The position numbers and the translations under genes are program-made. Below are positions 17,313-62,745 of a stretch of 64,000 nucleotides of DNA, in pieces (within the stretch, counting starts at the first letter, position 1; each line of letters opens with the position of its first letter). The stretch covers positions 45,064 to 109,063 of the IMG/VR virus record IMGVR_UViG_3300020463_000009; one strand, written 5' to 3'. The notes under the pieces are model-generated. The model had not been told where the DNA came from, made no database searches, and was given only the letters and a program-made list of their open reading frames with translations. The stretch is from a virus.

Positions 17313-17320
17313 TATAAATA
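17313..17320 (+). promoter_or_regulatory. T4-type late promoter TATAAATA
   Basis: Exact match 20 bases before gp21, giving the protease its own late start. Confidence 0.8.
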
Positions 17321-39101: not shown

Positions 39102-40467
39102 AGATTACATAACGGAAGAAAAAGAAGGTAAACCCTTTTTAAGGTTACTCATTATTACAGATGAACCTGAAGAGGCAAAAACTTTTCATACTGCCGATAG
39201 ATTACAGGAAGAATGTGATAAGTTAGGCTATCCACATTATCTATTTAAACTTACTGGTGGTTATACAAGTTATGAGAATGGTATTCGTAAGTTTCATAAC
39301 AAAGATGATAAAAAAGGTTTTGAAGTAGGCGCAATGACCGTTGCTATTGTTCGTGGTAGTATTACACGAAAAGATAGTTGGATGGACTTTGTATCTATAT
39401 TAGAAAGAGCAAACGCAACTCTCGTAAATCCTAGAACTACAATTAATATGTGTGCTGATAAGTATAGAACAGCATTAAGACTTGCAGATTATGGTTTGAC
39501 GCAACCTATGACCAAGTTAATAAATGACCCCGAAAAATCAAATGAAATAGTTGACGAGGCAAAAATTAAGTTTCCTTTAATTATGAAAACATTAAGAGGT
39601 AGTAAAGGTGTTGGTGTATTGTTTATTGATAGTCCAAAAGGATTAGATTCTATTGTTCAATTAATACACAAACAAGATGAAGATACAGATTTATTAATAC
39701 AAGAATATATTAAAACAGAATATGATGTAAGAGTACATATTTTAGGTGGTAAATTTTTAGCGGCTATGAAACGACCTGTAATCGAAGGAGATTTTAGGTC
39801 AAATGTTTCTCAAGGTTCTAAACCAGAAAATATTAAATTAACAGAATTAGAAATAGAACATTGTTTATTGGCTTCAAAAGCAGTTGGTGGTTATTGGACT
39901 GCTGTTGATTTTATACCTAGTAAGAATAGAGAAAAAGAACCACCTTATTTTCTTGAAGTAAACTCTTCACCTGGTACAGAGGGTATTGAAGACGCTACTA
40001 AAAAGAACATTGCAAAAGAAGTTATACAACATTTTGCCAATGGAGAGAACAGATATTCTGTCCCGACAGAATGTGGTTTTAAGGAGATTTTAACCATAAA
40101 ACCGTTTGGCGAATTAATTTCAAAATTTGATACGGGTAATTCAGGAATGCCAGTTATTCATTCAGATAAAATGAAAGTTGATGGTAAAAAAATTACTTGG
40201 TCATTATTAGGTAAAACAATCACTAGTGATATTGTACGTAAAGAAGAAATATCAGTTGGTGGTTTAAGAGACTATGACGAAGATAGATATGTGGTAAAAT
40301 TAGATGTTGAATTTGCAGGTGGCCATTATAAAGATGTAGAATTTACCATAGATAATAGAGAAGATAGAACTCCTATCTTACTGGACCGTGCATTTATGAA
40401 GAGATTAAACGTTATGGTCAATCCACAAAGAAAATACGTTATAACAACCAAATACAGCATTGACTAA
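39073..40467 (+). CDS. RimK-type ATP-grasp ligase fused to a retropepsin-like (RimB-type) domain
   Basis: A 464-residue fusion. Residues of about 20-320 are a RimK-like ATP-grasp: PLIMKTLRGSKGVGVLFI (ATP-binding Lys and loop), LIQEYIKTEYDVRVHILGGKFLAAMKR, and FLEVNSSPGTEGIE (metal-binding E and N). From about 330 a second domain reads EILTIKPFGELISKFDTGNSG and then RTPILLDRAFMKRLNVMVNPQRKYV, the pattern of RimB-type aspartic proteases, with DTG as the active Asp motif. RimK adds glutamates to S6 and RimB trims them. The N-terminus (KFKDYITEE) also resembles a T4 capsid-targeting sequence. It overlaps regA by 29 bases. Confidence 0.82.
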   Translation: MAKMQVSKFKDYITEEKEGKPFLRLLIITDEPEEAKTFHTADRLQEECDKLGYPHYLFKLTGGYTSYENGIRKFHNKDDKKGFEVGAMTVAIVRGSITRKDSWMDFVSILERANATLVNPRTTINMCADKYRTALRLADYGLTQPMTKLINDPEKSNEIVDEAKIKFPLIMKTLRGSKGVGVLFIDSPKGLDSIVQLIHKQDEDTDLLIQEYIKTEYDVRVHILGGKFLAAMKRPVIEGDFRSNVSQGSKPENIKLTELEIEHCLLASKAVGGYWTAVDFIPSKNREKEPPYFLEVNSSPGTEGIEDATKKNIAKEVIQHFANGENRYSVPTECGFKEILTIKPFGELISKFDTGNSGMPVIHSDKMKVDGKKITWSLLGKTITSDIVRKEEISVGGLRDYDEDRYVVKLDVEFAGGHYKDVEFTIDNREDRTPILLDRAFMKRLNVMVNPQRKYVITTKYSID

Positions 40468-49501: not shown

Positions 49502-50974
49502 ATGGGAACTTTAGCACCAGGAAGATTTACAACCAAGTACAAAGCCAGTAGTGGTCTTTACAAAGGTAAAGATTATGAAGATATTGCTTATTGTAAAATC
49601 AAAGATAAGAGAGAATTTATTATAGGCAGTAATAAAAATGGTCAAAAAGTTTATGGTTTAAAATTACTTAAAGATAAGAGCAACAAATACTTTTTATCTT
49701 ATGCCAATAGTAAAACATCTACTAAAGAAACTGGTAGAGATTTAATTTCTAAATTTTTCAAAGACGAAGATTTTGGTGGCGGAAAAGGTTCAGGTGGTGG
49801 TTCAGATGATACAGCTGTAACCGAGTCATTGCAATGTTATTATCTATCAATACTTTTTAATTCAAGTGTTTCTAAATTAACTGGTAAAGAAAGTTTAAAA
49901 CTATTAGATAATCAACAAAAATATTGTTTTACTTTTGATAAGGCAACTAGATTTACTGCTAGTAAATTATTAGAAAGTTGTCCTGAAGATTGGTTAAAAA
50001 ATAATGTATTTGTTAAGACAGCTAATGCAGTTTATAATTCTCAATACGTAAAAGCTTTTAGAGGCAAACAAGTTTACTTTCATAGAGGTTCTAAATTTAT
50101 GAAAGCTGTTTATGATAATAAAAAGAAGGCTCAAGAATACGATAAGAAATTTAATAATCCACGTATAGCACCTGGTTCTTTTAATGATGATAAGTGGAAT
50201 CCAGGAGATATATGGATGAGTACCAAACCACCTACTACTACAACACCTTTTTCAAAAGATGAAAAAACTTTACCTGTTGAATGGACAGAATTAAGAGAAG
50301 CAGTTAGAGATAAAGTTGATGAACATACTTTAGGTGTATCTTTAAAAAAAGTTGGTGGTACAAGTGCGATTATAACACCGTTTAATACTAGAAAAAGAAC
50401 TCATAATGCAAATACAAAATTTGCTGGTTTTAAATTTGGTTCGACAGGTGATTTTTTTAATTCAGCTGATATATATTTACACTTTGATGATGGTGGCTTA
50501 ATGCAATTAAGAGCTACTGCTACAACTAGATTATGGCAAGGTGAAATGAAAGGTAAATATGCAGCTGCTGGAAAAATAGGTGGTGGTGTCGTTAATCATT
50601 ATGTAGAAAAGAATTTTAAAAGAACTATTGGCTCTCAAAGTATTACAACAAATTATAGAGAAACGTATTATCAAAATAGTGATTTAAATAAATTCTACAA
50701 ATTATATACAAGATTCATTAATAAACAAAAAGCAGGTACAACAAAACAAGAAGTGTTGTCTATTGAAGAGTTTAAAAAAAGAGCCGATGGATATTCTTAT
50801 AGAGGTCAAAATGCAAGTCCAGCATTTTACTTTGGTAAGTATATGGGTTTACTTTTTTTAGAGTCAATCGAAGCAGATAAAAGAGGCAAAAATCTTGATG
50901 AATTATCAAGACAAATTGTTAGATATGCTATGTCTAATACGGATATTTCGACTTTTTTTATAAAGGTTTCATAG
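49502..50974 (+). CDS. Large protein of unknown function
   Basis: A 490-residue soluble protein. A Gly/Ser-rich linker (GGGKGSGGGSDD near residues 97-108) splits an N-terminal Lys-rich domain of about 95 residues from a large C-terminal domain that contains APGSFNDDKWNPGDIWMS, YLHFDDGGLMQLRATATTRLWQGEMKG and AFYFGKYMGLLFLESI. I recognise no catalytic motif. It stands alone between the helicase operon and the late promoter at 50975. The two-domain layout with a flexible linker suggests a virion-associated or injected protein, but this is only a guess. Confidence 0.7.
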   Translation: MGTLAPGRFTTKYKASSGLYKGKDYEDIAYCKIKDKREFIIGSNKNGQKVYGLKLLKDKSNKYFLSYANSKTSTKETGRDLISKFFKDEDFGGGKGSGGGSDDTAVTESLQCYYLSILFNSSVSKLTGKESLKLLDNQQKYCFTFDKATRFTASKLLESCPEDWLKNNVFVKTANAVYNSQYVKAFRGKQVYFHRGSKFMKAVYDNKKKAQEYDKKFNNPRIAPGSFNDDKWNPGDIWMSTKPPTTTTPFSKDEKTLPVEWTELREAVRDKVDEHTLGVSLKKVGGTSAIITPFNTRKRTHNANTKFAGFKFGSTGDFFNSADIYLHFDDGGLMQLRATATTRLWQGEMKGKYAAAGKIGGGVVNHYVEKNFKRTIGSQSITTNYRETYYQNSDLNKFYKLYTRFINKQKAGTTKQEVLSIEEFKKRADGYSYRGQNASPAFYFGKYMGLLFLESIEADKRGKNLDELSRQIVRYAMSNTDISTFFIKVS

Positions 50975-50982
50975 TATAAATA
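50975..50982 (+). promoter_or_regulatory. T4-type late promoter TATAAATA
   Basis: Exact match one base after the preceding stop and 60 bases before the DUF6267-like gene. It probably controls the run of genes to about 58.6 kb. Confidence 0.75.
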
Positions 50983-51041: not shown

Positions 51042-52259
51042 ATGTTTAGTTTTAAAGGATTCTTTACACAGGAAAAAAACACACACCTAGAACACCTAGA
51101 AGATGATATAATCAATAATGGTGCCAAGGGTGGTGATAACGCTATAAACTTTTTAAAATCGGTTAGAAATATGTTAGCCGGTAATAGTAAAAGTGCAGTT
51201 AATATGACCGTTAAATGGGACGGGGCACCTGCTATTATATGTGGTATCAATCCAGAAAACGGTAAATTTTTTGTTGGTACTAAATCAGTATTCAACGTAA
51301 ACCCTAAAATCAATTACAATCTATCAGACATTAGAAGAAACCATAGTGGTGCAGTTGCAGATAAACTTACAATCTGTTTAAGGTTTTTATCTAAACTTCC
51401 TATCAAAGGTATATTACAAGGCGACTTATTATTTACAAGTGATGATAAGAAAGGCGCAACCATTGATGGTGAAAAAATGATTTCATTTACACCCAATACT
51501 ATTACATATGCAGTACCAGTTGATAGTGGTATCGGTAGACAAATTGCCAGAGCCAAGATGGGGATTGTATTTCATACGGCATATACTGGTAAAAATATGA
51601 AAAGTTTATCAGCAGGTTTTGGTACTATCAGAGGTAGTGGTGGTTCAAATATATTTTTAGCGTCTGCTCAATATTCAGATAAATCTGGTTCAGTTATGTT
51701 TAATGCTAGTGAATTAAAATCATTTGATGGTCAGATACGAATGGCTGAAGGCTCATTAAGAAAAGGTGCGCCTATATTAAATCTTATGAGTCAAAATATA
51801 AAAGATGAACTATCAGTTGGTTTTAAATTAAAAACTTTCTTTAATTACTTTATCAAAACTACAAACTCTGATATGGGTAAAGTTAATATAATGCAAAAAC
51901 AATTTAGAGATTATTACGAAAACTTATTACAAAAAGAAATAGATTCAAGAAAAACACCAAAAGGTAAAGAGAAGTTTATAAAAGCAAAAGCAGATGGTCT
52001 AAAATTTATTGATAGAAATAGAACTGCTTTATACTTTGCAATTGCTAGTCATATTACTTTAGCAAATTGTAAGAATACCTTATTAAGAAAAATGAATCAA
52101 ATACAAAGTATTGGACATTTTATAAGAACAAGTAAAGGTTATAGAGTAACCGACCCCGAAGGATATGTAGCAGTTGATAGAGTTGCTGGTGCAGTTAAAC
52201 TTGTTGATAGATTAGAATTTAGTAGAACAAACTTTACATTACCAAAAGGGTGGAATTAA
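51042..52259 (+). CDS. DUF6267-like protein with a ligase-type KxDG motif
   Basis: A 405-residue protein of the kind annotated DUF6267 in marine T4-likes. MTVKWDGAPAIICG near residues 57-69 resembles motif I (K-x-D-G) of nucleic-acid ligases and capping enzymes, and ILQGDLLFTSDDKKG and EKMISFTPNTITYA could serve as later motifs. The N-terminus, MFSFKGFFTQE, is like a capsid-targeting sequence. It starts a late operon of enzymes with similar N-termini. The ligase idea is inference from short motifs; a database comparison would decide it. Confidence 0.72.
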   Translation: MFSFKGFFTQEKNTHLEHLEDDIINNGAKGGDNAINFLKSVRNMLAGNSKSAVNMTVKWDGAPAIICGINPENGKFFVGTKSVFNVNPKINYNLSDIRRNHSGAVADKLTICLRFLSKLPIKGILQGDLLFTSDDKKGATIDGEKMISFTPNTITYAVPVDSGIGRQIARAKMGIVFHTAYTGKNMKSLSAGFGTIRGSGGSNIFLASAQYSDKSGSVMFNASELKSFDGQIRMAEGSLRKGAPILNLMSQNIKDELSVGFKLKTFFNYFIKTTNSDMGKVNIMQKQFRDYYENLLQKEIDSRKTPKGKEKFIKAKADGLKFIDRNRTALYFAIASHITLANCKNTLLRKMNQIQSIGHFIRTSKGYRVTDPEGYVAVDRVAGAVKLVDRLEFSRTNFTLPKGWN

Positions 52260-52420
52260 TGAGAACTATACCAGATACAATTGATTTAATTAAAAAGAAA
52301 CTGATAGGTGTTTTAGACTTTTTTTATTCTATATGTGAAAGTATAGGTGGTAAAATGAGTGTATGGGCTTGGCAAAAAAGATGGTGCAATAGACAGAAAG
52401 GCACAGGTTATAGAAAGTGA
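52259..52420 (+). CDS. Short basic protein, possible
   Basis: A 53-residue frame starting in the stop codon of the previous gene (TAATG) and ending in a GTGA overlap with adenylate kinase. An amphipathic or weakly hydrophobic segment (LIKKKLIGVLDFFYSI) is followed by a W- and R-rich end (VWAWQKRWCNRQ). Perfect junctions on both sides support translation. No family recognised. Confidence 0.55.
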   Translation: MRTIPDTIDLIKKKLIGVLDFFYSICESIGGKMSVWAWQKRWCNRQKGTGYRK

Positions 52421-52998
52421 AATTTGTAGAAAGATTTTTAAGAGAAGTTAAAGGTGGACCTTGGCAAATTATTATGATTGGTGGACCAGGTTCTGGTAAA
52501 TCAACATATTCAGAATTTATAACTAAACATTTTGATATACCACACATTTATACTGGTGATATGATGAGAGACCTAGCAAAAAAAGATACACCAGACGGAA
52601 GAAAAGTAAAAGAATTATTAGCAAATGGTAAATTTGCACCAACAGAAATTGTAATGAGAGAAGTTATAGATAGATTAAAAAAACCAGACGCAGAAAACGG
52701 TTACGTATTTGATGGTTTTCCTAGAAGTATGGAACAAGTAGAAGCAATGGATAAGAATAATATAGAACACAACTTTATTATTAATTTACAAGTATCTGAA
52801 CAAGAAGTAATTAAAAGATTAACAGCCAGAGGTAGAGCAGACGATAAACCAGAGGTTATAAAACAAAGATTAAGAGAACACGAAAAACAAGTTGGTCCTG
52901 TTATTAAACATTTCGAAGACCAATTAATAAATATAAAGGCTGAGGGTGCTGAACCTGAAGTTATTGCAAACAAAATAATTAAAAGAATAGAAAGATGA
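52417..52998 (+). CDS. adk: Adenylate kinase-like nucleotide kinase
   Basis: A 193-residue kinase beginning at GTG. P-loop GGPGSGKST at 22-30, then YTGDMMRDLAKKDTPDGRKVKELLANGKFAPTEIV (AMP-binding lid) and GYVFDGFPRSMEQVEAMD, then RLTARGRADD with the catalytic arginines, all in adenylate kinase order. The LID is the short form. The first 11 residues (MKFVERFLREV) resemble a capsid-targeting peptide with a gp21-type L-R-E end. It would supply (d)ADP for DNA synthesis, or act from the virion if packaged. Confidence 0.87.
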   Translation: MKFVERFLREVKGGPWQIIMIGGPGSGKSTYSEFITKHFDIPHIYTGDMMRDLAKKDTPDGRKVKELLANGKFAPTEIVMREVIDRLKKPDAENGYVFDGFPRSMEQVEAMDKNNIEHNFIINLQVSEQEVIKRLTARGRADDKPEVIKQRLREHEKQVGPVIKHFEDQLINIKAEGAEPEVIANKIIKRIER

Positions 52999-53681
52999 AA
53001 TCATTTAACGACATAAGATATTTACAAGAAGGCCTGTATGACCCTAATATTTTTAAGGCATTTTTTCTTGCAGGTGGTCCAGGTTCTGGTAAAACTTTTG
53101 TAACCAGAAACGCATTTGGTGGCACAGGTTTAAGAATGATAAACTCTGATAATGCTTTTGAAAATGCATTGAAAAAAAATAATCTATCTCTTAAAATGCC
53201 TGAAGATGAGGCAGAAGCTAGAGATATAGTTAGAGCAAGAGCAAAGGCAACAACTGGTAATGTAATGGACTTATCTATTAAAGGTAGATTAGGTATGGTT
53301 GTTGACGGAACTGGTAGAGATTATGATAAGATTAAAGAACAAGTAGCACAATTAAGACAATTAGGTTATGATTGTTATATGATATTTGTTAATACTAGTT
53401 TAGATGTTGCGTTAGAAAGAAATTCTAAAAGAGAAAGAAGTGTACCAGAATATATTACAAGAAAATCTTGGGAAGGTGTACAAGGTAATATTGGTAGATT
53501 TCAAAATCTATTTGGTATGGGAAGTATGGTGATTGTTGATAATAGTAAAGACGATAAAGAACTTACAACAATTGTTATGGACAAAGTTGGTAAATCTGTT
53601 AGAAGATTACTAACAAATAAAATTAAGTCATACACAGCAAAAAGATGGATGGCTACAGAAAGAAAATTAAGAAGAAGATGA
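52995..53681 (+). CDS. P-loop kinase (zeta-toxin/polynucleotide-kinase-like)
   Basis: A 228-residue P-loop protein. Walker A GGPGSGKT is at 27-34; INSDNAFEN, VVDGTGRDYDKI, MIFVNTSLDVALERNSKRERSVPE and the following helices fit the zeta-toxin/Pnk kinase group. Proteins with the same start (MKxFxxxxxEGxYDPxIFKAFFLAGGPGSGK) occur in many T4-like phages. The N-terminus MKSFNDIRYLQE ends in an L-Q-E site as prohead protease would cut. Overlaps adk by 4 bases and the next gene by 4. Substrate unknown. Confidence 0.8.
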   Translation: MKSFNDIRYLQEGLYDPNIFKAFFLAGGPGSGKTFVTRNAFGGTGLRMINSDNAFENALKKNNLSLKMPEDEAEARDIVRARAKATTGNVMDLSIKGRLGMVVDGTGRDYDKIKEQVAQLRQLGYDCYMIFVNTSLDVALERNSKRERSVPEYITRKSWEGVQGNIGRFQNLFGMGSMVIVDNSKDDKELTTIVMDKVGKSVRRLLTNKIKSYTAKRWMATERKLRRR

Positions 53682-55972
53682 AAACGTTTAAAGAAAGTAT
53701 CATAGACATACCGAGAAGAACATATGCTAAGGCTGTGTTTGATGACGCTGATACTCCTAATCCTAAAATCAAACCTAGTGTTGTTGTATTAATCAACAAA
53801 CAACTAGAAGAATTTGAAAGTGAGTATCCTGTTTTAAAAGTTTCTCTTATAGGTTCTATTCTTACAAAGAGATATAGAAATGACGCAGACCTAGACCTTA
53901 ATGTATTGTTTGATGTACCTGCTGATAAACAAGAAGAAGAAAGAACAAGACTATCTAAAAAGTATTTGTCTGCTTCTAATCCAGATAACATACAAGGTAA
54001 ATTAATACCAGGTTCTAAACACCCTATTAATTATTATTTCATAACAGATAAGAAAACTTATGATGACCAAAATAAAAAGGCTGACGCCGTGTTTGATATT
54101 GAGGGTAATAAGTTTATAAAAAGACCTGACGATTTTACATTTGACCCTAGTTTATACATAAAAGATTTTGAGAAAAAAGTACAAGAGTTAGATGTCATTA
54201 AAGGTGAATTAAAAAGAGACATTATTGATTACAGAGAATTAGAAGAATTAGAACCTAATGATATTTTAAATTTACAAGATAGAATTAATGATAAGTTAGA
54301 AGAAATAGAAGATAGTATCAAAGCTATTATTAAAGTAGGTGATGGCGTTGACGCAGATAGAAGAGCTGCATTTGATTCAGATATGACACCAGACCAGATA
54401 CAAAAGTTTGGTATCAAGAATAGATTACCTAAAAATGTTATCTATAAAATGTTAGAGAAGTATCACTATTTAAACTTCTATAAAAAATGTAAAAAGATTT
54501 TAGATGATGGTAAAGTATCTGATAAAGAAATAGATGATTTAGAAATGCACGAAGCAAAAGGTAAATCAATTGCATTTAGTTTTGGTAGATTTAATCCACC
54601 TACAACTGGCCACGAAAAGTTAATTAATAAAGTGGCAAGTATTAGAGCAAATGATTATAAAATTTATTTAAGTAGAAGTCAGGATCCTAAAAAGAATCCA
54701 TTATCGCCTAGACAAAAACTAGATATAATGAGAAAGATGTTTCCTAGACACGCAAGAAATATAGAAGTTAATAATACAAATATGATATTAGATATTTGTA
54801 CACTACTTTACAAAAGAGGTTATAGTGATATAACTATGGTTGTTGGTAGTGATAGAGTAAGAGAATTTGATACAATAATTAAAAAGTATAATGATGTAAA
54901 ATCAAGACACGGTTATTATAATTTTGATAACATTAATGTTGTATCTGCTGGCGAAAGAGACCCCGATGCCGATAACGTATCAGGTATGTCAGCAAGTAAA
55001 ATGAGAGCAGCTGCCTCAAGCAACGATATTAATAGTTTTAAAAGAGGACTACCAAGAGGTGTTGACGCAACTGCCATTATGAAACAAGTTAGACAAGGTA
55101 TGAATCTAGCCGCTCAATACACAGGCGAGACTAGAGAGGTCGTACCATTTAAAGATTTTGAACACCAACAAATTAGAGATTTATATATTAGAGATATGAT
55201 ATTTAATGTAGGTGAACAAGTCAGTTATGTTAAAGAAGATATCGAAGGCAAAGTAGTTAGAAAAGGAACTAATTACATTGTACTAGAAGACAATAAAAAT
55301 AATTTACACAAAGCTTGGATATGGGATTGTGTACCTGTATCGGCTGATAGAGAGGTAGAAGTGCGAGAATATAATACAGATGTTGATTATGGCTTTAAAG
55401 CTGTATCAACAATAGAAGAAGATTTAGACGCTCAACCCCAAGATAAAGATGTTAAGAAGAAAAAAGGTACTCAACCTAAAAAATACTATAAAGATTTATC
55501 AAAAGGTGAGAAAGAAAAAAGAGCAGACTATTTTAAGAATAAAGATACTACAAAGAATGATAATAAACCAGCACCAGGCGATAAGGGTGCTAAAACTAAA
55601 CCAAGTATTCATACTACTAAATTTAAGAAGATGTATGGTGAACTTAAAAATGAGTTGGTAAGTAAAGTAAAAGAGAGTACAGATATAGGTCAAGATTACT
55701 ATAAACATACTTCAACGATAACTCCTGGTGAGCCAGATTATCCTGGATTTGAAAATCCTACTTACAAACCATCACAACCAGGTAGTGGTGATAACCCTAA
55801 AGTCAAGAAAGTCAAAGGGTTTCTTGAAAGAGAAACAGATAAACCATCAGAAAAAGATGTAAAAGAATGGGCTGCTACAGAGTCCACAATGAATAAATAT
55901 AGGGAACGATATCAAGAAGAATGGGAAGCAAAGCTAAAAGAGGCTGTTGCTAAGATGATAGAGAAACTATAA
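53678..55972 (+). CDS. Multidomain nucleotidyltransferase plus NMN/cytidylyl-type adenylyltransferase fusion
   Basis: A 764-residue fusion starting MKTFKESIIDIP. Residues of about 40-110 hold a pol-beta-type nucleotidyltransferase core (IGSILTKRYRNDADLDLNVLF, G-S ... D-x-D). Around 295-450 lies a class I nucleotidylyltransferase: FGRFNPPTTGHEKLI (T-x-G-H) and VSGMSASKMRAAA (S-x-S-x-x-R). The last 250 residues include a small beta barrel (GEQVSYVKEDIEGKVVRKGTNYIVLED) and Lys/Asp-rich linkers. ATG 53678 overlaps the previous stop (ATGA). It may take part in RNA or NAD chemistry; no substrate can be read from the sequence. Confidence 0.78.
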   Translation: MKTFKESIIDIPRRTYAKAVFDDADTPNPKIKPSVVVLINKQLEEFESEYPVLKVSLIGSILTKRYRNDADLDLNVLFDVPADKQEEERTRLSKKYLSASNPDNIQGKLIPGSKHPINYYFITDKKTYDDQNKKADAVFDIEGNKFIKRPDDFTFDPSLYIKDFEKKVQELDVIKGELKRDIIDYRELEELEPNDILNLQDRINDKLEEIEDSIKAIIKVGDGVDADRRAAFDSDMTPDQIQKFGIKNRLPKNVIYKMLEKYHYLNFYKKCKKILDDGKVSDKEIDDLEMHEAKGKSIAFSFGRFNPPTTGHEKLINKVASIRANDYKIYLSRSQDPKKNPLSPRQKLDIMRKMFPRHARNIEVNNTNMILDICTLLYKRGYSDITMVVGSDRVREFDTIIKKYNDVKSRHGYYNFDNINVVSAGERDPDADNVSGMSASKMRAAASSNDINSFKRGLPRGVDATAIMKQVRQGMNLAAQYTGETREVVPFKDFEHQQIRDLYIRDMIFNVGEQVSYVKEDIEGKVVRKGTNYIVLEDNKNNLHKAWIWDCVPVSADREVEVREYNTDVDYGFKAVSTIEEDLDAQPQDKDVKKKKGTQPKKYYKDLSKGEKEKRADYFKNKDTTKNDNKPAPGDKGAKTKPSIHTTKFKKMYGELKNELVSKVKESTDIGQDYYKHTSTITPGEPDYPGFENPTYKPSQPGSGDNPKVKKVKGFLERETDKPSEKDVKEWAATESTMNKYRERYQEEWEAKLKEAVAKMIEKL

Positions 55973-56319
55973 TGAAAACTTTTAAAGAATACGAAGATAT
56001 TGATAGTAAATGTGAAGAGTGTATATTTGAACACGAACACGAGCCTTTAGAAGAGGCAGAATATCAAGGTAAAAAGGTTACGTTAAATGACCCAATTCGT
56101 GGTGGTAGTAAAAAGTTTTACGTATATGTAAAGAATGAAAAAGGTAATATTATCAAAGTATCGTTTGGTGATACAACAGGTTTAAGTATAAAAAGAGACG
56201 ACCCGGCTAGACGTAAATCGTTTAGAGCAAGGCACAATTGTGATAATCCAGGTCCTAAAACAAAAGCTAGATATTGGTCTTGTTATCAATGGAGAGCGGG
56301 AGCAAAGGTAAACAACTAA
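55972..56319 (+). CDS. Small phage protein with capsid-targeting-like start and Cys-rich C-terminal module
   Basis: A 115-residue protein. N-terminal MKTFKEYEDID, an acidic Cys/His stretch (CEECIFEHEHE) and then a beta domain ending RKSFRARHNCDNPGPKTKARYWSCYQW, a module I have seen in other T4-like phage proteins but cannot name. Cys and His in the first part could bind metal. Overlaps both neighbours by one to three bases. Probably packaged in or attached to the head; inferred from the N-terminus and company. Confidence 0.7.
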   Translation: MKTFKEYEDIDSKCEECIFEHEHEPLEEAEYQGKKVTLNDPIRGGSKKFYVYVKNEKGNIIKVSFGDTTGLSIKRDDPARRKSFRARHNCDNPGPKTKARYWSCYQWRAGAKVNN

Positions 56320-58322
56320 TGAGTAGATACAGAAAAACATTTAAAGAGGCAATGGCTGAAGTACAACTTAATGAAGTTGGTTATTTGCAATCTAAATTAA
56401 ACGACAGACAAATTCAAAATATCAAAAAAATTTGGCAATTTAAAACCAAAAAAGATATAACACCAGCAGTTAAAAAGATGATTAAGAATATGGATCCAAT
56501 AACTCAAGGTGCAATTAAAGACGCAGGTATAAATCTATTATCAGACATTGCTGAAGGCATTATTGCTGAAGGTAGAATGTCAGAGATTGACGCTATGCAA
56601 AAAGCAGGTAAGTCAGCGGCTGAGATTGCTAAACTTATGAAACTACCTGTTAAAACGGTAAAAAGTATTTTAGGTGAAGAAGATGGTGATTCTGCTCAAG
56701 ATATGAATGACGCAAAACCAGGTAAAGAAAAAATTAGAGAAGAAGACGAAAAAGAAAAAGAAGAAGATAAGAAAAAGAAAGATAAAGAAGATATAGCTCC
56801 TGATAATGATGTACCAGTAGAAACTAAAAAAGAAGATAGTAAAGGTACAGAAAAATTAGAAGCTGAAATAGAAAAAAAAGATAACGAAATTCAATCTCTG
56901 AAAGTAAAAGCAGAAACAGAAAAAGCAAAAGCAACAAAAAAAGAAACTGAAAAAATGGTAAATCCTGAAACAGGCGAACCATTATTACAAATCGGTGTTG
57001 CATACAAACATCTTAAAGATAAGATGGAAAGAGAAAAAGTAAAAAAAGAAGAAGTCGAATTAGATGAAGTTGCTAACTTTACAGCAACTATGTTAAAAAC
57101 TCTCAAAAAAGAATACGAACCAATGAGAGGTAAAAAAATTACAGCTGCTAGAGCCAGACAATTAATGAATATACTTGATAAGTTAAATGACGCAAACTTA
57201 AATATTTTAAGTAAAGCAAATATACCTTTTGTATCTAGTGGTTCTACATCTAAATTAATGGTTAGAAAAATGAAAGTTAAGGTTACTGATATAGACCCTT
57301 TCAAAGAAGAAATAGAATATGATGAAGATATGTTTGAAGCTTGTTGGACAGGTTATAAACAAGTTGGTTTCAAGAAAAAAGGTGGTAAACAAGTACCTAA
57401 TTGTGTGCCTGAAGAAATAGAAGAAGGCAGATTTACTAAATTACATAACTTACTAATTCAAAAAGGCCGAATGGCACAAGCTAAAGATAATCAAGGTGAA
57501 AAAAGAACAGATGTCGAAATTGCAAAACAAAAGAAAATGCTTGGTATAAATGAAGTTTTAAATAAAGATGATGAAAAAGTTGTATCTAAAGTAAAAGATA
57601 TGTTAAAAGGTGCTAGTGAAAAACATAAAAGTCAAGCCAAAGAATTAGACAAAGCATTAAAAAATGAAATGAAAAAAGATGACGCTTACGCAATAGGTAT
57701 GGCACAGGCTAAAAAAGTTATGAATGATGAGCCACCTTTAGAAAAGAAAACAATTAAAAAAGGTCACGAAATTGCAGATAAGATTTTAAATAAAGAAGAA
57801 ACAATTAAAGAATTTAAAAAGATGACGGTTTATGTAAAAGACCAAAATAAAAGAAACAAAGCGATTGATGACCTAAAAAAACAAAAATTTAAAGTAGATG
57901 TTTTTGGTGATAAAATTCACGTTGATGGCAAAGGTGCAGACCTGAACAAATATGCTACTGACCTTAAAAATTTTTATGGTGCTAATATTGATATCAAAAA
58001 AGAAAATGCGCCAACGGCTGCTGATATGGATAGATTAAAAAAACAAGGTATGAAACCTAAAATGAAAAACGAAGACCACCCAGCAAAAGAAATTTATGAA
58101 CAGATTAAGGGTTTAAAAAACAAGGCTGAAAAATCAGGTATGCCATATGGTATACTTAAAAAAGTATATGATAGAGGAATGGCAGCTTGGCGAGGTGGCC
58201 ACAGACCAGGTGCAACACAGCAACAATGGGCTTTTGCTAGAGTAAATTCATTTGTTACCAAATCAAGTGGTACTTGGGGTGGTGCAGATAAAGATTTAGC
58301 TAAACAAGTAAAGGGAAAATAA
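56319..58322 (+). CDS. Large mosaic internal-head-type protein
   Basis: A 667-residue mosaic of short phage modules joined by charged low-complexity linkers. N-terminus RKTFKEAMAEVQLNE; Lys/Glu linker from about 140 to 230; a Lys-rich helical block; the module CWTGYKQVGFKKKGGKQVPNCVPEE near residues 335-360; and a C-terminal DUF5824-like domain (MPYGILKKVYDRGMAAWRGGHRPGATQQQWAFARVNSFVTKSSGTWGGADKDL). Several [LI]-x-E sites (VQLNE, VELDE) look like gp21 cleavage points between modules. A virion-internal protein cut during maturation is a good fit. Start at 56319 overlaps the previous stop (TAATG). Confidence 0.72.
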   Translation: MSRYRKTFKEAMAEVQLNEVGYLQSKLNDRQIQNIKKIWQFKTKKDITPAVKKMIKNMDPITQGAIKDAGINLLSDIAEGIIAEGRMSEIDAMQKAGKSAAEIAKLMKLPVKTVKSILGEEDGDSAQDMNDAKPGKEKIREEDEKEKEEDKKKKDKEDIAPDNDVPVETKKEDSKGTEKLEAEIEKKDNEIQSLKVKAETEKAKATKKETEKMVNPETGEPLLQIGVAYKHLKDKMEREKVKKEEVELDEVANFTATMLKTLKKEYEPMRGKKITAARARQLMNILDKLNDANLNILSKANIPFVSSGSTSKLMVRKMKVKVTDIDPFKEEIEYDEDMFEACWTGYKQVGFKKKGGKQVPNCVPEEIEEGRFTKLHNLLIQKGRMAQAKDNQGEKRTDVEIAKQKKMLGINEVLNKDDEKVVSKVKDMLKGASEKHKSQAKELDKALKNEMKKDDAYAIGMAQAKKVMNDEPPLEKKTIKKGHEIADKILNKEETIKEFKKMTVYVKDQNKRNKAIDDLKKQKFKVDVFGDKIHVDGKGADLNKYATDLKNFYGANIDIKKENAPTAADMDRLKKQGMKPKMKNEDHPAKEIYEQIKGLKNKAEKSGMPYGILKKVYDRGMAAWRGGHRPGATQQQWAFARVNSFVTKSSGTWGGADKDLAKQVKGK

Positions 58323-58323
58323 A

Positions 58324-58596
58324 ATGGGATATTTAAATAACAAACCTGGTAGTATTGAAGAAGTTGTAAATAACTTATCAAAACATATGACAGAAAATGA
58401 ATATCAAAAGATGTTCAAAAAAGAATTAGAGAAAACTGGTAAAGGTATCGGTTCTATGTCACCTAAAGAAAAAAAAGATTTCTTTAATATGATTGATAAA
58501 AAATACAAAAAAGAATCAGACCAAGGTGGACAGACAATGACAGGTATGAAAAAGACCAAAGTTGAAACTGAACCAGAAATAAAATACAATAAATAA
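58324..58596 (+). CDS. Small Lys-rich protein, unknown
   Basis: A 90-residue protein following directly on the mosaic gene. MTENEYQKMFKKELEKTGKGIGSMSPKEKKDFFNMIDKKYK is a helical core found in small head-region proteins of T4-like phages; the C-terminus is disordered. AAAATG after GGAAAATA is the start. No enzymatic motif. Confidence 0.65.
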   Translation: MGYLNNKPGSIEEVVNNLSKHMTENEYQKMFKKELEKTGKGIGSMSPKEKKDFFNMIDKKYKKESDQGGQTMTGMKKTKVETEPEIKYNK

Positions 58597-58605
58597 AAAA
58601 AACGC

Positions 58606-58633
58606 TTGCCATACTATCCTAATATGTTATAGT
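58606..58633 (+). promoter_or_regulatory. Host-type promoter, TTGCCA-N16-TATAGT
   Basis: Precedes the nucleotidase gene; followed by the leader GAAAGGACCACTATG, related to the leaders at 30235 and 32601. Confidence 0.65.
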
Positions 58634-58653
58634 AATAGTATGAAAGGACCACT

Positions 58654-59130
58654 ATGAAAAAAATATATTGTGATATGGATGGCGTCCTTGTTGACTTTGT
58701 AAAAGGTGCTGAAAAACAAACAGGTAAATCTATTACAAAGTGGGCTCAAGGAAGTAAATCCGAAAAATGGGGACAGATAAAAGCTAACCCTAATTTCTGG
58801 CGAGACCTACCTTGGATGTCTGGAGGTAAACAACTCTGGAACTTCTTAAAAAATAAAGATGTAGAAATACTATCAGCATATGTAGAAGATACATATGATA
58901 AAAATTGTATACCAGGTAAAAAGTTTTGGGCTACAAAAAATCTAGGTATCTCATCTAGTAAAATAAACCTAGTAAGACGAGTACAAAAACAACAATTCGC
59001 AGATAAAAATTCAATTCTCATTGACGACTATCCTAAAAATGTCAATGACTTTAGAGCCAGAGGTGGTCAAGGTATTGTCCATAATGGCGACACTTCAAGA
59101 ACTTTAAGACTTCTTAAATCCCTCCTATAA
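58654..59130 (+). CDS. HAD-family 5'(3')-deoxyribonucleotidase-like protein
   Basis: A 158-residue HAD phosphatase. CDMDGVLVDF gives nucleophile Asp7 and acid/base Asp9; LSAY is motif 2; a Lys in ...KFWATKNLG and the ILIDDYPKNV motif 4 complete the site. It resembles phage 5'-deoxyribonucleotidases, which dephosphorylate dNMPs. Preceded by its own host-type promoter, so it is likely expressed early, unlike its flanking late genes. Confidence 0.85.
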   Translation: MKKIYCDMDGVLVDFVKGAEKQTGKSITKWAQGSKSEKWGQIKANPNFWRDLPWMSGGKQLWNFLKNKDVEILSAYVEDTYDKNCIPGKKFWATKNLGISSSKINLVRRVQKQQFADKNSILIDDYPKNVNDFRARGGQGIVHNGDTSRTLRLLKSLL

Positions 59131-59143
59131 AATAGTATTTCCT

Positions 59144-59151
59144 TATAAATA
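59144..59151 (+). promoter_or_regulatory. T4-type late promoter TATAAATA
   Basis: Exact match 14 bases after the nucleotidase stop and 56 bases before the 96-residue gene. Confidence 0.8.
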
Positions 59152-59206
59152 GTGGTACACATTAAAAATTGAGTACCAATAATTAAACTTAAAGGGAGAG
59201 AATACT

Positions 59207-59497
59207 ATGTCATCACATACTAATAAAGACGAAGCTGCTGGAGCACCATTATGGGCTGTAGCTGCTATCAGAAAAGAGCCTACTTCGGCTAATAGAACTG
59301 ATTTGTTCGGTGATACAACTGCTAACAACTTTATAACAGGGGTTACTATGGGTCTTTTTAATTTCAAAGACACAGAAACACAATCTGGTAAAATTGCACA
59401 CGCTGGTTGGAATCTAAAAACAACTGGTTCTGGTGGTAGAGCAAGTAGAATTCAGTTTGAAACATTAGTTGCATTAACTAACTCAGCTGACGCTTAA
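59207..59497 (+). CDS. Small probable virion protein under its own late promoter
   Basis: A 96-residue protein with Ala/Thr/Gly-rich composition (APLWAVAAIRKEPTSANRTDLFGDT; AHAGWNLKTTGSGGRASRIQFETLVAL). It has an individual late promoter upstream and a hairpin terminator downstream, so it is a single-gene transcription unit, as expected for an abundant structural or decoration protein. AAGGGAGAG gives a strong ribosome site. No family named. Confidence 0.75.
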   Translation: MSSHTNKDEAAGAPLWAVAAIRKEPTSANRTDLFGDTTANNFITGVTMGLFNFKDTETQSGKIAHAGWNLKTTGSGGRASRIQFETLVALTNSADA

Positions 59498-59511
59498 TAA
59501 TCAATAAACAT

Positions 59512-59538
59512 AGGGGTAGGAACTATGTTCCTGCCCTT
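59512..59538 (+). terminator. Hairpin terminator after the 96-residue gene
   Basis: An 11-base stem (AGGGGTAGGAA / TTCCTGCCCTT, two G-U pairs) with a 5-base loop. It lacks a T run and abuts the next late promoter. Confidence 0.65.
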
Positions 59539-59545
59539 ATAAATA
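59538..59545 (+). promoter_or_regulatory. T4-type late promoter TATAAATA
   Basis: Exact match immediately after the hairpin; 66 bases before the next gene. Confidence 0.8.
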
Positions 59546-59611
59546 TATTAACAAAGTGATTGTATCAACTGGTACAAGTAGCATACCCATAAGGGTTTTT
59601 AGGAGAAAAAA

Positions 59612-60073
59612 ATGGCAGATAAGAAAATCACACAGCTTACCGATTTAGGTAACGCATTAGCTTCGGTTGACCTATTTCATATAGTAGATGACCCAAGCGG
59701 AACACCAATCAATAAAAAAGTAAGTGCGGCTTCTGTTTTCAATAACATACCTAGTTTTTTAGGATTAGGACAAGCTTCACAACAATTAACAACTGACGGT
59801 TCAACGGTTTCAGCGGCTGATGTAACCTCAGCAATAACTGAAATTAACGCAACAAACCAAGCAGGTACTATTTCATTAGCAAATGGTTCTGATGGTCAAA
59901 TTAAAACATTTATTAATACGTCAACATCCGGCACATTTGCGGCTACGATAACACCTACAAGTTTGAGAGGTCATACTAGTATGGTAATATCTGGTCCAGG
60001 TAAAACCGTTCAATGTATTTTCAAGAATGGCTCTTGGAATATTTTGGGTGGTAATGCATATACGGTTGTTTAA
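59612..60073 (+). CDS. Probable tail/head surface protein
   Basis: A 153-residue protein. The start ADKKITQLTDLGNALASVDLFHIVDDPSGTPINKKVS is a common opening of marine phage fibre and structural proteins (D-K-K-I-T-Q-L-T-x-L, then D-x-x-x-V-D-D-P). The remainder is Ser/Thr/Gly-rich beta structure (GSDGQIKTFINTSTSGTFAATITPTSLRGHTS). It has its own late promoter. A virion surface role is inferred. Confidence 0.78.
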   Translation: MADKKITQLTDLGNALASVDLFHIVDDPSGTPINKKVSAASVFNNIPSFLGLGQASQQLTTDGSTVSAADVTSAITEINATNQAGTISLANGSDGQIKTFINTSTSGTFAATITPTSLRGHTSMVISGPGKTVQCIFKNGSWNILGGNAYTVV

Positions 60074-60097
60074 TATTAATATTGATTGGAGTATATA

Positions 60098-60328
60098 ATG
60101 ACAATATCAATTAAAGAGTTAGAAACTGAACGTGAAAAATTAAAGAAGGACTTTGACGATTTAAAAAATAACATTGGCAAAGTAGAAGTAGATTTAGGAG
60201 CTATGAAAAGTAATTTAAATGCTTTAAATGGTGCAATACAATTTGCTACTAATTTAATAACTACAGCAAGTGCTCGTGAAAACGAAATTGCTGGTAAAAA
60301 CGTAAAGAAAAAAAATGAAAAAATTTAA
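60098..60328 (+). CDS. Small coiled-coil protein
   Basis: A 76-residue protein whose first 55 residues form a coiled coil (IKELETEREKLKKDFDDLKNNIGKVEVDLGAMKSNLNALNGAIQ). The ATG at 60098 follows TTGGAG; the frame is also open from a TTG at 60086. Follows the structural gene at 59612 by 25 bases and overlaps the next by 14. Possibly a tail or head assembly chaperone; not recognised. Confidence 0.65.
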   Translation: MTISIKELETEREKLKKDFDDLKNNIGKVEVDLGAMKSNLNALNGAIQFATNLITTASARENEIAGKNVKKKNEKI

Positions 60329-60521
60329 ATCTTTTATAGAAGATAAAAATTTAGATGACTTTGAGGAAGATGTTTTAGGTGAAAAAGCACCTAATACTGC
60401 TGACGCTATGAAGCGTCATAAAGCAGGCAAGGCTGGTTTTACAGATAAAGCACACCTTAAAGCAAAAGGTTTGATACCAAGAGCCGATGGTTCTAAAAAA
60501 GTATCAGACAAGTATAAGTAA
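60315..60521 (+). CDS. Small protein with capsid-targeting-like N-terminus
   Basis: A 68-residue protein. MKKFKSFIEDKN resembles the T4 capsid-targeting sequence (MKTYQEFIAEA), and EEDVLGE is a possible gp21 site at residue 23. The mature remainder would be a 45-residue basic peptide (KAGKAGFTDKAHLKAKGL). Similar small basic peptides occur as internal proteins in T4-likes. No enzymatic motif. Confidence 0.65.
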   Translation: MKKFKSFIEDKNLDDFEEDVLGEKAPNTADAMKRHKAGKAGFTDKAHLKAKGLIPRADGSKKVSDKYK

Positions 60522-60532
60522 GGAAAGGGAAA

Positions 60533-60970
60533 ATGAAAACTTTTAAACAACATATAAACATTAAAGAAACACTTGACGGTGGTCACGTTGGAACACCAGA
60601 TGTTGCCTCTTTTGAAGATGGTAGTATTGGTCCTCATAACGTTCAAGACGCCGAGGTTTTAAAAAGAATAAATGGTTTCTTGGGTGGAACAGCTATGAAA
60701 GAATATATGACAGCTCAACACGCAGTAGAAGAAATCAGAAACAACCTAATGAAAATTGGTTTGTTTGTACCTAATCAACAAGCAACTGGTGATAAAGGTA
60801 ACTTTACAGCCGAGGTAAAATTTGGTGGAGGAAGATTTGGCAAGGACGTAGATGGTTCTGATATTAATGATGATGGTATTTCTCACAAAAAAGAAGGCGG
60901 TTTAAAGCTTCAAGTTGAATACGAAACATTAAAAACAGGAATGTCTAAAGTTTACGCTAAACTAGTGTAA
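60533..60970 (+). CDS. Protein with capsid-targeting-like N-terminus, unknown
   Basis: A 145-residue protein. MKTFKQHINIKE resembles the T4 capsid-targeting sequence with an I-K-E end. The body includes GTAMKEYMTAQHAVEEIRNNLMKIGL and a C-terminal beta part (GGLKLQVEYETLKTGMSKVYAKLV). AAGGAAAGGG provides the ribosome site. Virion-internal location inferred. No family recognised. Confidence 0.68.
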   Translation: MKTFKQHINIKETLDGGHVGTPDVASFEDGSIGPHNVQDAEVLKRINGFLGGTAMKEYMTAQHAVEEIRNNLMKIGLFVPNQQATGDKGNFTAEVKFGGGRFGKDVDGSDINDDGISHKKEGGLKLQVEYETLKTGMSKVYAKLV

Positions 60971-61333
60971 ATGTTTGAACAGATAACCAAACAAAACTGG
61001 TTGTTATATGCAATGCATAATTATGACAACCCTACTCTTGAAAAACAACAAGAGTTTGATGATGATATAAAGAGATTTAAATATCTCAAGCGATTATTTC
61101 GTAAGTATGAAACACTAGGCGAAATAAAGATACGATTGATACTAAATCATATTATATTATTAAATAATGTTTTTGGTGCTGAAGCTTGTATGACTTTATT
61201 ATTATTTAAGATTGATAAACAATACTGGCCAATACTAAAATCTGTTTGTGGTTATCTAGGTTATCTATATCCTCACGAATTAAATGAGGTAGATGAAGAC
61301 CAAGCAATTACAGGAATGCTAAAGGAACTATAA
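60971..61333 (+). CDS. Conserved-type T4-like phage protein, unknown
   Basis: A 120-residue helical protein beginning directly after the previous stop. YLKRLFRKYETLGEIKIRLILNHIILLNNVFGAEACMTLLLFKI is the recognisable core of a small protein that recurs in marine T4-likes near head genes. Possibly DUF7207-like; I am unsure of the label. No motif suggests an enzyme. One-base overlap with the next gene. Confidence 0.7.
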   Translation: MFEQITKQNWLLYAMHNYDNPTLEKQQEFDDDIKRFKYLKRLFRKYETLGEIKIRLILNHIILLNNVFGAEACMTLLLFKIDKQYWPILKSVCGYLGYLYPHELNEVDEDQAITGMLKEL

Positions 61334-61812
61334 TGAGTAGAGGAATTGATTTATTAATTACTTACAGAGTTATCAAATTATTGGTAACACCGTTTGAAAA
61401 AATGCCAGCGTTTAAAAAAGGTATTATAGACGCAGACGGTAAAGTATTAATAAAATTTAAAAAGGTTCAAGGTAATGATAAAAAACATTATACTATTTTA
61501 CATAGGTTTGTTTTTAATTTAAAAAGAATATTAAAAAAGGTAGGACTTGGTTCAAGACTAGGTTCATTTGCTGTCGCATTAGCATTATTAATTAAAGAAG
61601 ATAAAAGTTTTGCTCTGTATAAAGACGCCATAGAATCTGGTGTCATTATGTATCTAAAAGAACAAGGCCAATATGAAAACTTGTTAAAAGAAGAAGGCGA
61701 AGTGCCTTCTATGATTTTTGAACAAGAGCCATATATGACTTGTTTTGGTATTGATGTATATGATTTAGGAGGAGAATTAATCTCGGAGAAAGAATATGCC
61801 CAAACACTATAA
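61333..61812 (+). CDS. Unknown protein, mixed alpha/beta
   Basis: A 159-residue protein starting at the last base of the previous gene. The N-terminal ITYRVIKLLVTPFEKMPAFKKGIIDADGKVLIKFK and central KRILKKVGLGSRLGSFAVALALLI are regular helix/strand elements, with a moderately hydrophobic Ala/Leu segment near residues 80-95 that is too short to be a clear membrane span. Similar proteins accompany the previous gene in marine T4-likes. Function unknown. Confidence 0.68.
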   Translation: MSRGIDLLITYRVIKLLVTPFEKMPAFKKGIIDADGKVLIKFKKVQGNDKKHYTILHRFVFNLKRILKKVGLGSRLGSFAVALALLIKEDKSFALYKDAIESGVIMYLKEQGQYENLLKEEGEVPSMIFEQEPYMTCFGIDVYDLGGELISEKEYAQTL

Positions 61813-62167
61813 AGAAATGATGGACGAAATCATCAATAAGATGGATGAAGACGCACCAGCAAATTCAGTCGCAGGTGGTGGAGTTGATATGGCTCCAAAT
61901 GCAAAACACCCATTAACAAAATCTCATAATAAATATCAAAAGAAAAATAAAGACGCTGAAAATGTTTTAAAAGATTTGATTATGAAAAGAATGGGGAGTA
62001 ATGTAAAAGAACATAACGATAATAATAATATAGTTTTAAAAGGTGTTTTAAACACACTAGATAGAATAGATGAAAAAGTTGATAAGTTATCAGGTATTAT
62101 TAGAGAAGAAGTTAAGATAGTAGAAATAGAAGATAAAATAACTTTAAGAGAAAAATCTAAAGTATGA
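61796..62167 (+). CDS. Small protein with DAPANSVAGG segment, probable head-associated
   Basis: A 123-residue protein. The segment MDEDAPANSVAGGGVDM near residues 17-33 is a short motif found in small T4-like proteins beside head genes (D/E-x-A-P-A-N-x-V-x-G-G). The middle is Lys-rich; the C-terminus forms a coiled coil (VLNTLDRIDEKVDKLSGIIREEVKIVE). Overlaps neighbours by 17 and 4 bases. Confidence 0.65.
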   Translation: MPKHYKEMMDEIINKMDEDAPANSVAGGGVDMAPNAKHPLTKSHNKYQKKNKDAENVLKDLIMKRMGSNVKEHNDNNNIVLKGVLNTLDRIDEKVDKLSGIIREEVKIVEIEDKITLREKSKV

Positions 62168-62745
62168 GAAGTTTCAAAGAATATATATCGGGGTTTAGTA
62201 TAGGTCCAACCTCTCACTTGGCACCTATAGCTAGTCTAGGTGATACACCACCTAAAGGCGCTCAACATAGGTCAAAAAGAGCAGTCGGTATAAATGCTAA
62301 TACAGATAAAACTTTGTATATGAAACTTTTGAGAAAGGCTATGTCAACAATGCCTGGTTCTCAAAAACAAAAAGAGATTAAAAAAGAAATAGAAAAAGTA
62401 CAAAAAAGATTAGGTATTAAAAAAGAAGATACAAATAGAATACCAAGAAAACCTGGTCAAAAAGCAGGTTCGGATAAACACTCTGATTTATATACAGATG
62501 AAAATCCAAAAGGTACAATACACGGTTTAGGTTTTACAGATTCAAAAAAAGCAAGAGAGTCAGTAAACAAAATAAAAAATTCTGGTAAAACTCACGCTCA
62601 CAAAATGCAGGCTGCTATTGCAATGTCGCAAAGAGCTAAAGTCGCAAGTGAAAGAGCAAAGGATCCTGAAAAGAAAAAAAATCTAGGTCAGGCTCATAAG
62701 ATTTATCAGACTTATATAGATACTAATAAAAAAAGTAAGGATTAA
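62164..62745 (+). CDS. Basic internal-protein-like protein
   Basis: A 193-residue, Lys-rich protein beginning MRSFKEYISGF, a capsid-targeting-like N-terminus without the usual Glu. The C-terminal module HSDLYTDENPKGTIHGLGFTDSKKARESVNKIKNSGKTHAHKMQAAIAMSQRAK is a small helical domain I have seen in marine phages, without known function. Strong positive charge suggests DNA binding within the head. Confidence 0.68.
   Translation: MRSFKEYISGFSIGPTSHLAPIASLGDTPPKGAQHRSKRAVGINANTDKTLYMKLLRKAMSTMPGSQKQKEIKKEIEKVQKRLGIKKEDTNRIPRKPGQKAGSDKHSDLYTDENPKGTIHGLGFTDSKKARESVNKIKNSGKTHAHKMQAAIAMSQRAKVASERAKDPEKKKNLGQAHKIYQTYIDTNKKSKD

Follow-up and report, generated by a model that had tools for sequence, protein, structure and literature searches.

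Internal proteins (IPs) of bacteriophage T4 carry an N-terminal capsid-targeting tag, in which mutagenesis of IPIII assigned residues 4 and 7 to targeting and residues 8 and 10 to processing; gp21 cleaves after L/I-x-E, and targeting is still possible with D at position 10 (PMC9026906). The tag is already known on diverse T-even internal proteins, and a review has proposed general protein packing for T4-like phages (PMC9026906). In the T4 proteins we read MKTYQEFIAEA in IPII and IPIII, MKTFKEF in IPI and FLTE↓A at the gp23 site (arrows mark cleavage sites, known or predicted). Here, we have examined similar peptides at the start of enzyme genes in a 64,000-nucleotide (nt) stretch of a T4-like marine virus contig (the window; bases 45064-109063 of the 109 kb virus record IMGVR_UViG_3300020463_000009). 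We conclude that these peptides are very probably T4-type capsid-targeting sequences that package enzymes into the phage head.

Tagged genes of the window and their homologues

The first-pass annotation of this stretch had listed nine genes with T4-like N-terminal peptides, the one at 39073 with a "perhaps", and all nine peptides are present in the sequence at their positions (Table 1). The start at 39073 is right, or else lies at an in-frame ATG at 39082, and the tag of this RimK-like protein is found in 34/34 distinct N-termini from 80 contigs, at a locus far from the operon that holds most other tagged genes; RimK of Methylophilales phage Melnitz begins TQKFSQFITEE. A tenth tagged gene, absent from that list, starts at 56319 (MSRYRKTFKEAMAEVQLNE↓V; start verified). 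The gene at 52417 begins with GTG, where the start codon of a close relative is ATG (MKFFERFLREV). In the window genes and in their homologues the peptide occupies the extreme N-terminus with aromatics at positions 4 and 7; the exception in the window is the 52417 protein, which has V4 where close relatives have F4.

For scoring we used a T4-derived rule (aromatic at 4, aromatic or H at 7, hydrophobic at 8, E/D at 10), a match being at least three of the four positions, with internal windows of the same proteins as background. Seven of the 121 called genes of the contig matched, compared with 1.25 expected (P = 2.8e-4), and six of the seven fall within 51-62.7 kb. The first-pass annotation had named enrichment over the N-termini of the contig as a check, and it is there, if modest; by itself it is only moderately convincing, and suggestive only, because the tolerance of the rule was chosen after the earlier finding had been read. 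The seventh match, at 43607 (GNAT, MKKFKNNIEDFFKW), was rejected as a tagged gene: its N-terminus is conserved into the domain and shows no cleavage junction in 80 relatives.

As judged by sequence comparison, it is the homologues that are decisive in placing the tags above chance. We collected IMG/VR contigs that carry homologous operons, about 110 in all, and called homologue N-termini by a tag-blind start rule. At three or more of the four positions, the distinct N-termini matched in 18/24 cases for adenylate kinase, 29/43 for the DUF6267 protein, 19/21 for the 60533 family, 6/7 for 60315, 5/7 for 62164, 21/61 for the nucleotidyltransferase, 14/50 for 56319 and 11/46 for the P-loop kinase. 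Pooled, the nine cargo families gave 127/294, compared with 2/243 for thirteen control families of these loci (Fisher P = 1.9e-37), and with all four positions required 38/294 versus 0/243 (Fisher P = 3.6e-11); homologous N-termini are related rather than independent, which weighs against our reading in that these pooled P-values are not literal, and the contrast is nonetheless very large.

The tags vary in sequence and length between homologues, yet the T4 positions are kept. Adenylate kinase homologues start with MKSFKQYFFEA, MKSFKNFITEA, MKRFKSYIKEE or MKTFKQYVTEV and then share a common P-loop, and in alignments with the 52417 protein most solved adenylate kinases join only at about residue 17, the tag extension being absent from them. 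Glutamate makes up 6.8% of residues overall. The junctions between tag and mature domain keep their form: [LI]-x-E↓GLYDP-like in 46/46 P-loop kinase homologues, with tags of 8-20 residues; [ILVF]-x-E↓[AS][IV]IDIPR in the nucleotidyltransferase, with E at P1 in 27/28; [LI]-x-E↓[AS]E[YF]QGK in 25/25 homologues of the 55972 protein; and a gp21-type site in 34/34 RimK homologues. The DUF6267 protein carries many different tags in relatives or, in 14 loci, has no tag and begins precisely with its core, M(A)KNTHLEHLE. The tag is what unrelated families (adenylate kinase, DUF6267, zeta-like kinase, nucleotidyltransferase and ATP-grasp) have in common, as expected of a module.

The head genes with which a T4-type capsid-targeting sequence would operate, of gp20, gp21, gp22 and gp23 type, are all encoded in the window. 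The tag ends have the same form as the gp23 N-terminal sites, FLSE↓A in the window virus, LLTE↓A in cyanophage S-CREM2, FLAE↓A in S-SCSM1 and FLTE↓A in T4, the first three being predicted by analogy with the last.

The T4-type late promoter TATAAATA occurs at 23 sites on the contig, 21 of them intergenic while 96.6% of the contig is coding, and precedes gp21, gp22, portal, sheath and other structural genes as well as the cargo operon. In relatives it lies upstream of DUF6267 in 64 of 80, with displayed distances of 63-67 nt. By plain count in the window the motif showed no enrichment, and it is informative only through its strand and intergenic position. Because this promoter stands before the operon (51042 to ~58.3 kb) in the window virus and in relatives, the operon is probably expressed together with the head proteins.

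Intact-looking nucleotide-binding motifs are kept in the cargo (GGPGSGKST, GGPGSGKT, GRFNPPTTGH), and the zeta toxin/AAA_33 match of the 52995 protein lies above curated cutoffs (PF06414, 44.1 bits versus 22.3; PF13671, 49.3 versus 27). As predicted activities, adenylate kinase and the domains resembling nicotinamide mononucleotide adenylyltransferase (NMNAT) point to nucleotide and nicotinamide adenine dinucleotide (NAD) pools, the zeta/AAA_33 kinase and the nucleotidyltransferase to RNA or small-molecule modification, and RimK to protein tailing. In DUF6267, the invariant KWDG, QGD, EGxV and K386 (KxVDR) resemble motifs I, III, IV and V of ligase/capping-type covalent nucleotidyltransferases, with a helical insertion between them. 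No PDB profile matched this protein, Foldseek on two middling models was not significant and hhalign to T4 RnlB was negative; a polynucleotide ligase is suggested by motif likeness only, and these fold and profile searches, while giving it no support, do not refute it.

Apart from the head genes, the window encodes T4-type terminase, sheath and tube, and DNA polymerase, clamp loader, UvsX and a gp41-type helicase are also readable. By protein, the closest annotated phages are Pelagibacter phage HTVC008M, Melnitz and cyanophages, filed under Kyanoviridae; a near-identity DNA search among phages gave no match to the window. The 62164 homologue of one relative reads MKKFKEYIAEVGG. An NT5C/HAD-like phosphatase at 58654-59130 is untagged in the window and has homologues with tag-like extensions in HTVC008M (MKYSAFKAETLNLHLVQEQ) and Melnitz (MKSIVEVTSINEE); in addition, a HAD-like protein on one relative contig (L105) starts MIRFKEYLAEE.

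Table 1. Coordinates of cargo candidates, promoter and head genes in the window, followed by features on relative contigs (L numbers).
Feature	Coordinates	Strand	Evidence or remark
RimK-like ATP-grasp tag MAKMQVSKFKDYITE↓E	39073..39117	+	34/34 distinct N-termini in 80 contigs
RimK-like ATP-grasp ligase, tagged cargo candidate outside late operon	39073..40467	+	PF08443 E=8e-36
T4-type late promoter TATAAATA of cargo operon	50975..50982	+	67 nt upstream of 51042
DUF6267 protein tag MFSFKGFFTQE	51042..51074	+	66 distinct tagged N-termini in relatives
DUF6267 protein, invariant KWDG, QGD, EGxV, KxVDR	51042..52259	+	PF19782 E=1e-120; alignments
Adenylate kinase tag MKFVERFLRE↓V	52417..52446	+	18/24 distinct homologue N-termini tagged
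Adenylate kinase, candidate cargo	52417..52998	+	PF00406 E=8e-41
P-loop kinase tag MKSFNDIRYLQE↓G	52995..53030	+	P1=E, P3=L/I in 46/46 distinct homologues
Zeta/AAA_33-type P-loop kinase, candidate cargo	52995..53681	+	PF13671 E=8e-13; PF06414 E=2e-11; 1gvn zeta E=0.001
Nucleotidyltransferase fusion tag MKTFKE↓S	53678..53695	+	[ILVF]xE↓[AS][IV]IDIPR junction
NTP_transf_2 + cytidylyl/NMN-adenylyltransferase-like fusion, candidate cargo	53678..55972	+	PF01909, PF01467, phrog_395 E=3e-71
Long IPI-like tag MKTFKEYE...PLEE↓AEYQGK	55972..56055	+	P1=E, P3=L/I in 25/25 distinct homologues
Tagged small protein phrog_7595	55972..56319	+	E=7e-16
Tag MSRYRKTFKEAMAEVQLNE↓V	56319..56375	+	MSRYRKTxxEA conserved in relatives
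Tagged lysine-rich protein, DUF5824-type C-terminus	56319..58322	+	PF19141 E=3e-17
Small tagged protein MKKFKSFIED	60315..60521	+	6/7 distinct homologue N-termini tagged
Tagged protein MKTFKQHINIKE↓T	60533..60970	+	19/21 distinct homologue N-termini tagged, mostly MKTFKQHI[KNT]E
Tagged protein MRSFKEYISG, no cleavage glutamate in window copy	62164..62745	+	5/7 distinct homologue N-termini tagged
Untagged neighbour phrog_1462	49502..50974	+	S-SCSM1 gp90 E=5e-21; gp90 annotated as virion protein
gp21-type prohead protease, expected processing enzyme	17340..17984	+	phrog_207 E=1e-78; TATAAATA at 17313
gp22-type scaffold/core protein	18044..19228	+	phrog_237 E=7e-80
gp23-type major capsid protein	19255..20595	+	phrog_138 E=9e-169; predicted FLSE↓AAPT site after E52
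gp23-arm-copy proteins	L007:16343-17236; L127:43121-43306; L131:15348-15542		S-CREM2 gp160; S-SCSM1 gp97; S-CRM01 g121
Cyanophage tagged block	L008:3837-13331; L131:8249-12827; L132, L133		S-CREM2; S-CRM01; S-N03, MA10

Virion proteomes of related cyanophages

Tagged proteins are found in the virions of relatives, as we could establish by mapping published mass spectrometry (MS) onto the tags. The virion proteome of S-CREM2 contains an S-adenosylmethionine (SAM) hydrolase, an APH/ChoK-like kinase, a cytidylyltransferase and a Cas9-like nuclease, exactly the four proteins that its authors list as regulatory/nucleic-acid virion enzymes (PMC10665884). When we searched the first 14 residues of the annotated S-CREM2 proteins for [FY]xx[FYH][ILMFV]xE, the motif was present in three proteins (the SAM hydrolase, the kinase and the cytidylyltransferase), all of the virion, and in 0/157 undetected proteins (P = 0.002). 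Extending the search to the first 30 residues added the virion Cas9-like nuclease (residues 19-25) and one undetected protein (P = 0.001). Similarly, the NMNAT of S-SCSM1, a virion protein (PMC9602691), is tagged MKSFLQFLKEA, the cytidylyltransferase of S-SZBM1, also a virion protein (PMC9146016), is tagged MRFRQFIIEA, and the S-CRM01 kinase, reported in virions (cited in PMC10665884), is tagged MISFDQFLSEK. The window protein at 53678 has homologues in S-SCSM1 (gp91, E = 8e-62) and S-CREM2 (gp154, E = 1e-35), and cyanophage homologues were found in virions; the cytidylyltransferases of S-CREM1, P-TIM68 and S-ShM2 are likewise tagged. Of two neighbouring S-SZBM1 proteins, the untagged DUF6267 is missing from the virion table and the tagged cytidylyltransferase is present, a single pair that may reflect sensitivity.

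Three further features of the cyanophages were noted. Small proteins of S-CREM2 (gp160), S-SCSM1 (gp97) and S-CRM01 (g121) contain 24 residues that nearly duplicate the N-terminal arm of mature gp23, e.g. AAGATGFTGAAAPEGPVAGYDPLM compared with AVGADGFTGAAAPGGPNAGFDPVM in gp23 (local score 95 versus a shuffled maximum of 54); gp160 and gp97 were detected in virions, and the copy is possibly a second, gp23-mimicking capsid-association peptide. The window gene at 61796, considered as a mimic of the N-arm of the window virus gp23, was rejected, its alignment being no better than shuffles. The S-SCSM1 virion protein gp93 (L127:41626-41835) has RTFKEFLEYIE, a peptide like a capsid-targeting sequence, at its C-terminal end; T4 Alt and gp21 also undergo C-terminal processing. 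Finally, a block of tagged genes encoding a kinase, Cas9-like or large proteins and small MKxLxxFLxE proteins recurs in cyanophages and may form a second cargo cluster in those of cluster C.

Packaging, injection and competing explanations

The capsid-targeting interpretation put forward by the first-pass annotation is supported by a tag that is all that unrelated folds share, by the T4 register, the junction site, the presence of gp20-gp23, the late promoter and the tagged homologues in virions. In such a system, the enzymes would be made late in infection alongside the head proteins. As what is probably a short amphipathic helix (F/Y4, F/Y/H7 and I/L8 on one face), the tag would dock on the gp22 scaffold inside the prohead, the gp22-type protein of the window being its expected partner. 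gp21 would then cut after L/I-x-E and free the mature enzyme, around which DNA would be packaged, and the enzyme would enter the next host with the DNA and act ahead of phage gene expression. If T4 Alt and IPI are a guide, the cargo might there condition the host or block pre-made defences via NAD/nucleotide or RNA/protein modification. T4 IPI, IPII and IPIII block type IV restriction (PMC12373910), and arrival at time zero would fit a part in counter-defence or take-over, as with these proteins and Alt. That the tagged enzymes are injected into the host seems to us fairly likely. We regard as evenly balanced a broader proposal, in which a general, swappable N-terminal address of marine T4-like viruses loads a metabolic/counter-defence enzyme kit that is injected ahead of phage gene expression. 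Its kit would comprise NAD/nucleotide enzymes, kinases, nucleotidyltransferases, the ATP-grasp modifier, SAM hydrolase and Cas9-like nuclease, and many "auxiliary metabolic genes" would be delivered effectors that act within the first minutes of infection, a view that could go either way.

The tags could instead retain enzymes in the core of the prohead, where they would be filler or partners in assembly, packaged and with a role in assembly while nothing useful is injected. IPIII has an effect on head morphogenesis in T4 (PMC9026906), several of the cargo proteins are small, rich in lysine or lack a known domain (56319, 60315, 62164), and the evidence reaches packaging only, not injection; however, the nucleotide-binding motifs of the cargo enzymes look intact, and the S-CREM2 SAM hydrolase, kinase and Cas9-like nuclease would be odd choices for scaffolding, so that we consider this explanation unlikely. 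Much less credit is due to the idea that the N-terminus is no protein tag and reflects a signal in the DNA or RNA, tied to translation start or to late-gene context, or AT-rich chance. Although MK[TS]FK is written in A/T-rich codons and F4 is always TTT in three families, T3, H7, I8 and E10 are each written with varying synonymous codons, the amino-acid register and the cleavage site are constant despite variable tag length, cyanophages share the motif, and both late and early genes serve as controls in the 2/243 given above; on codon variation and control genes, a DNA-level start-site signal was set aside. A short amphipathic N-terminal helix could also address another site (host membrane, replication compartment), but the tag ends in a site of prohead-protease type, identical in form to that of gp23, and tagged homologues are virion proteins, which makes another destination highly improbable.

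Several observations count against packaging by T4-type tags. The window virus is known from sequence alone, the virion evidence being that of relatives, and RimK has no late promoter nearby. The claim of the first-pass annotation that several tags end in L/I-x-E holds for 52995, 55972, 53678 and RimK and fails for 62164, which has no E; the ends are weak in 51042 and 60315, and cleavage is doubtful for the DUF6267 tags (T-x-D/E; T-Q-E in 51042), for 60315 (I-E-D) and for 62164. As for the virions, the S-CREM2 authors caution that minor enzymes seen by MS may be carry-over (PMC10665884), enrichment across the S-SCSM1 proteome was not significant (P = 0.17-0.4; only one virion protein with a strict tag), and untagged proteins, e.g. 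S-SCSM1 gp90, are also in virions, so that some cargo or structural proteins do without the tag.

Enzymes recur in purified cyanophage virions, where real cargo versus carry-over has been undecided, and the tag offers a sequence reason for their presence. It also provides a rule for predicting cargo in abundant ocean viruses that have no proteome, SAR11-phage-like viruses included, and the tags constitute a natural library of packaging peptides. If injection is true, some viral "auxiliary" enzymes would shift from being made during infection to being delivered at time zero, when they could counter pre-made defence, restore NAD and start take-over.

Comparison with described head-packaged proteins

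In the open literature, to which our search was confined (subscription literature being outside reach), we found no report of the tag beyond T-even phages, marine phages included, or of its link to virion enzymes, and the accessible portions of the cyanophage virion proteome studies do not mention a targeting signal. S-CREM2, S-SCSM1 and S-SZBM1 have a homologous cytidylyltransferase that bears this tag and that MS detected in their purified virions. In S-SCSM1, S-SZBM1 and S-CRM01 a corresponding block of genes lies between gp41 and the primase/nrdA genes; it differs from that of the window in that adenylate kinase was not seen in the cyanophage blocks examined.

Anti-restriction proteins such as DarA/Hdf of phage P1 and the ejection proteins of giant phages, e.g. 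SPN3US, are likewise packed in the head and delivered with the DNA, some of them after processing by a prohead protease, but they belong to different phages and follow a different targeting logic. Closer is T4 Alt, a virion ADP-ribosyltransferase that is also a head-carried enzyme, processed by gp21 and delivered to the host (PMC9026906). Alt differs in having only a 7-residue N-terminal propeptide, and no Alt homologue was identified in the window virus.

The tags most resemble that of the T4 internal proteins: they are N-terminal, span ~10-19 residues, have aromatics at 4 and 7, a hydrophobic residue at 8, E10 and L/I-x-E, and, as in the gp21-cut internal proteins, join unrelated mature domains that have only the tag in common. 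Unlike in T4, most of the cargo of the window virus is made up of enzymes, namely adenylate kinase, P-loop kinase, NMNAT/nucleotidyltransferase and an ATP-grasp ligase. A genome holds about ten cargo genes in a single late operon region, with RimK in addition, and orthologues differ in both the sequence and the length of their tags. What is new is thus the extension of T4 targeting logic to a whole series of enzymes in another phage family, one that is dominant in the ocean.

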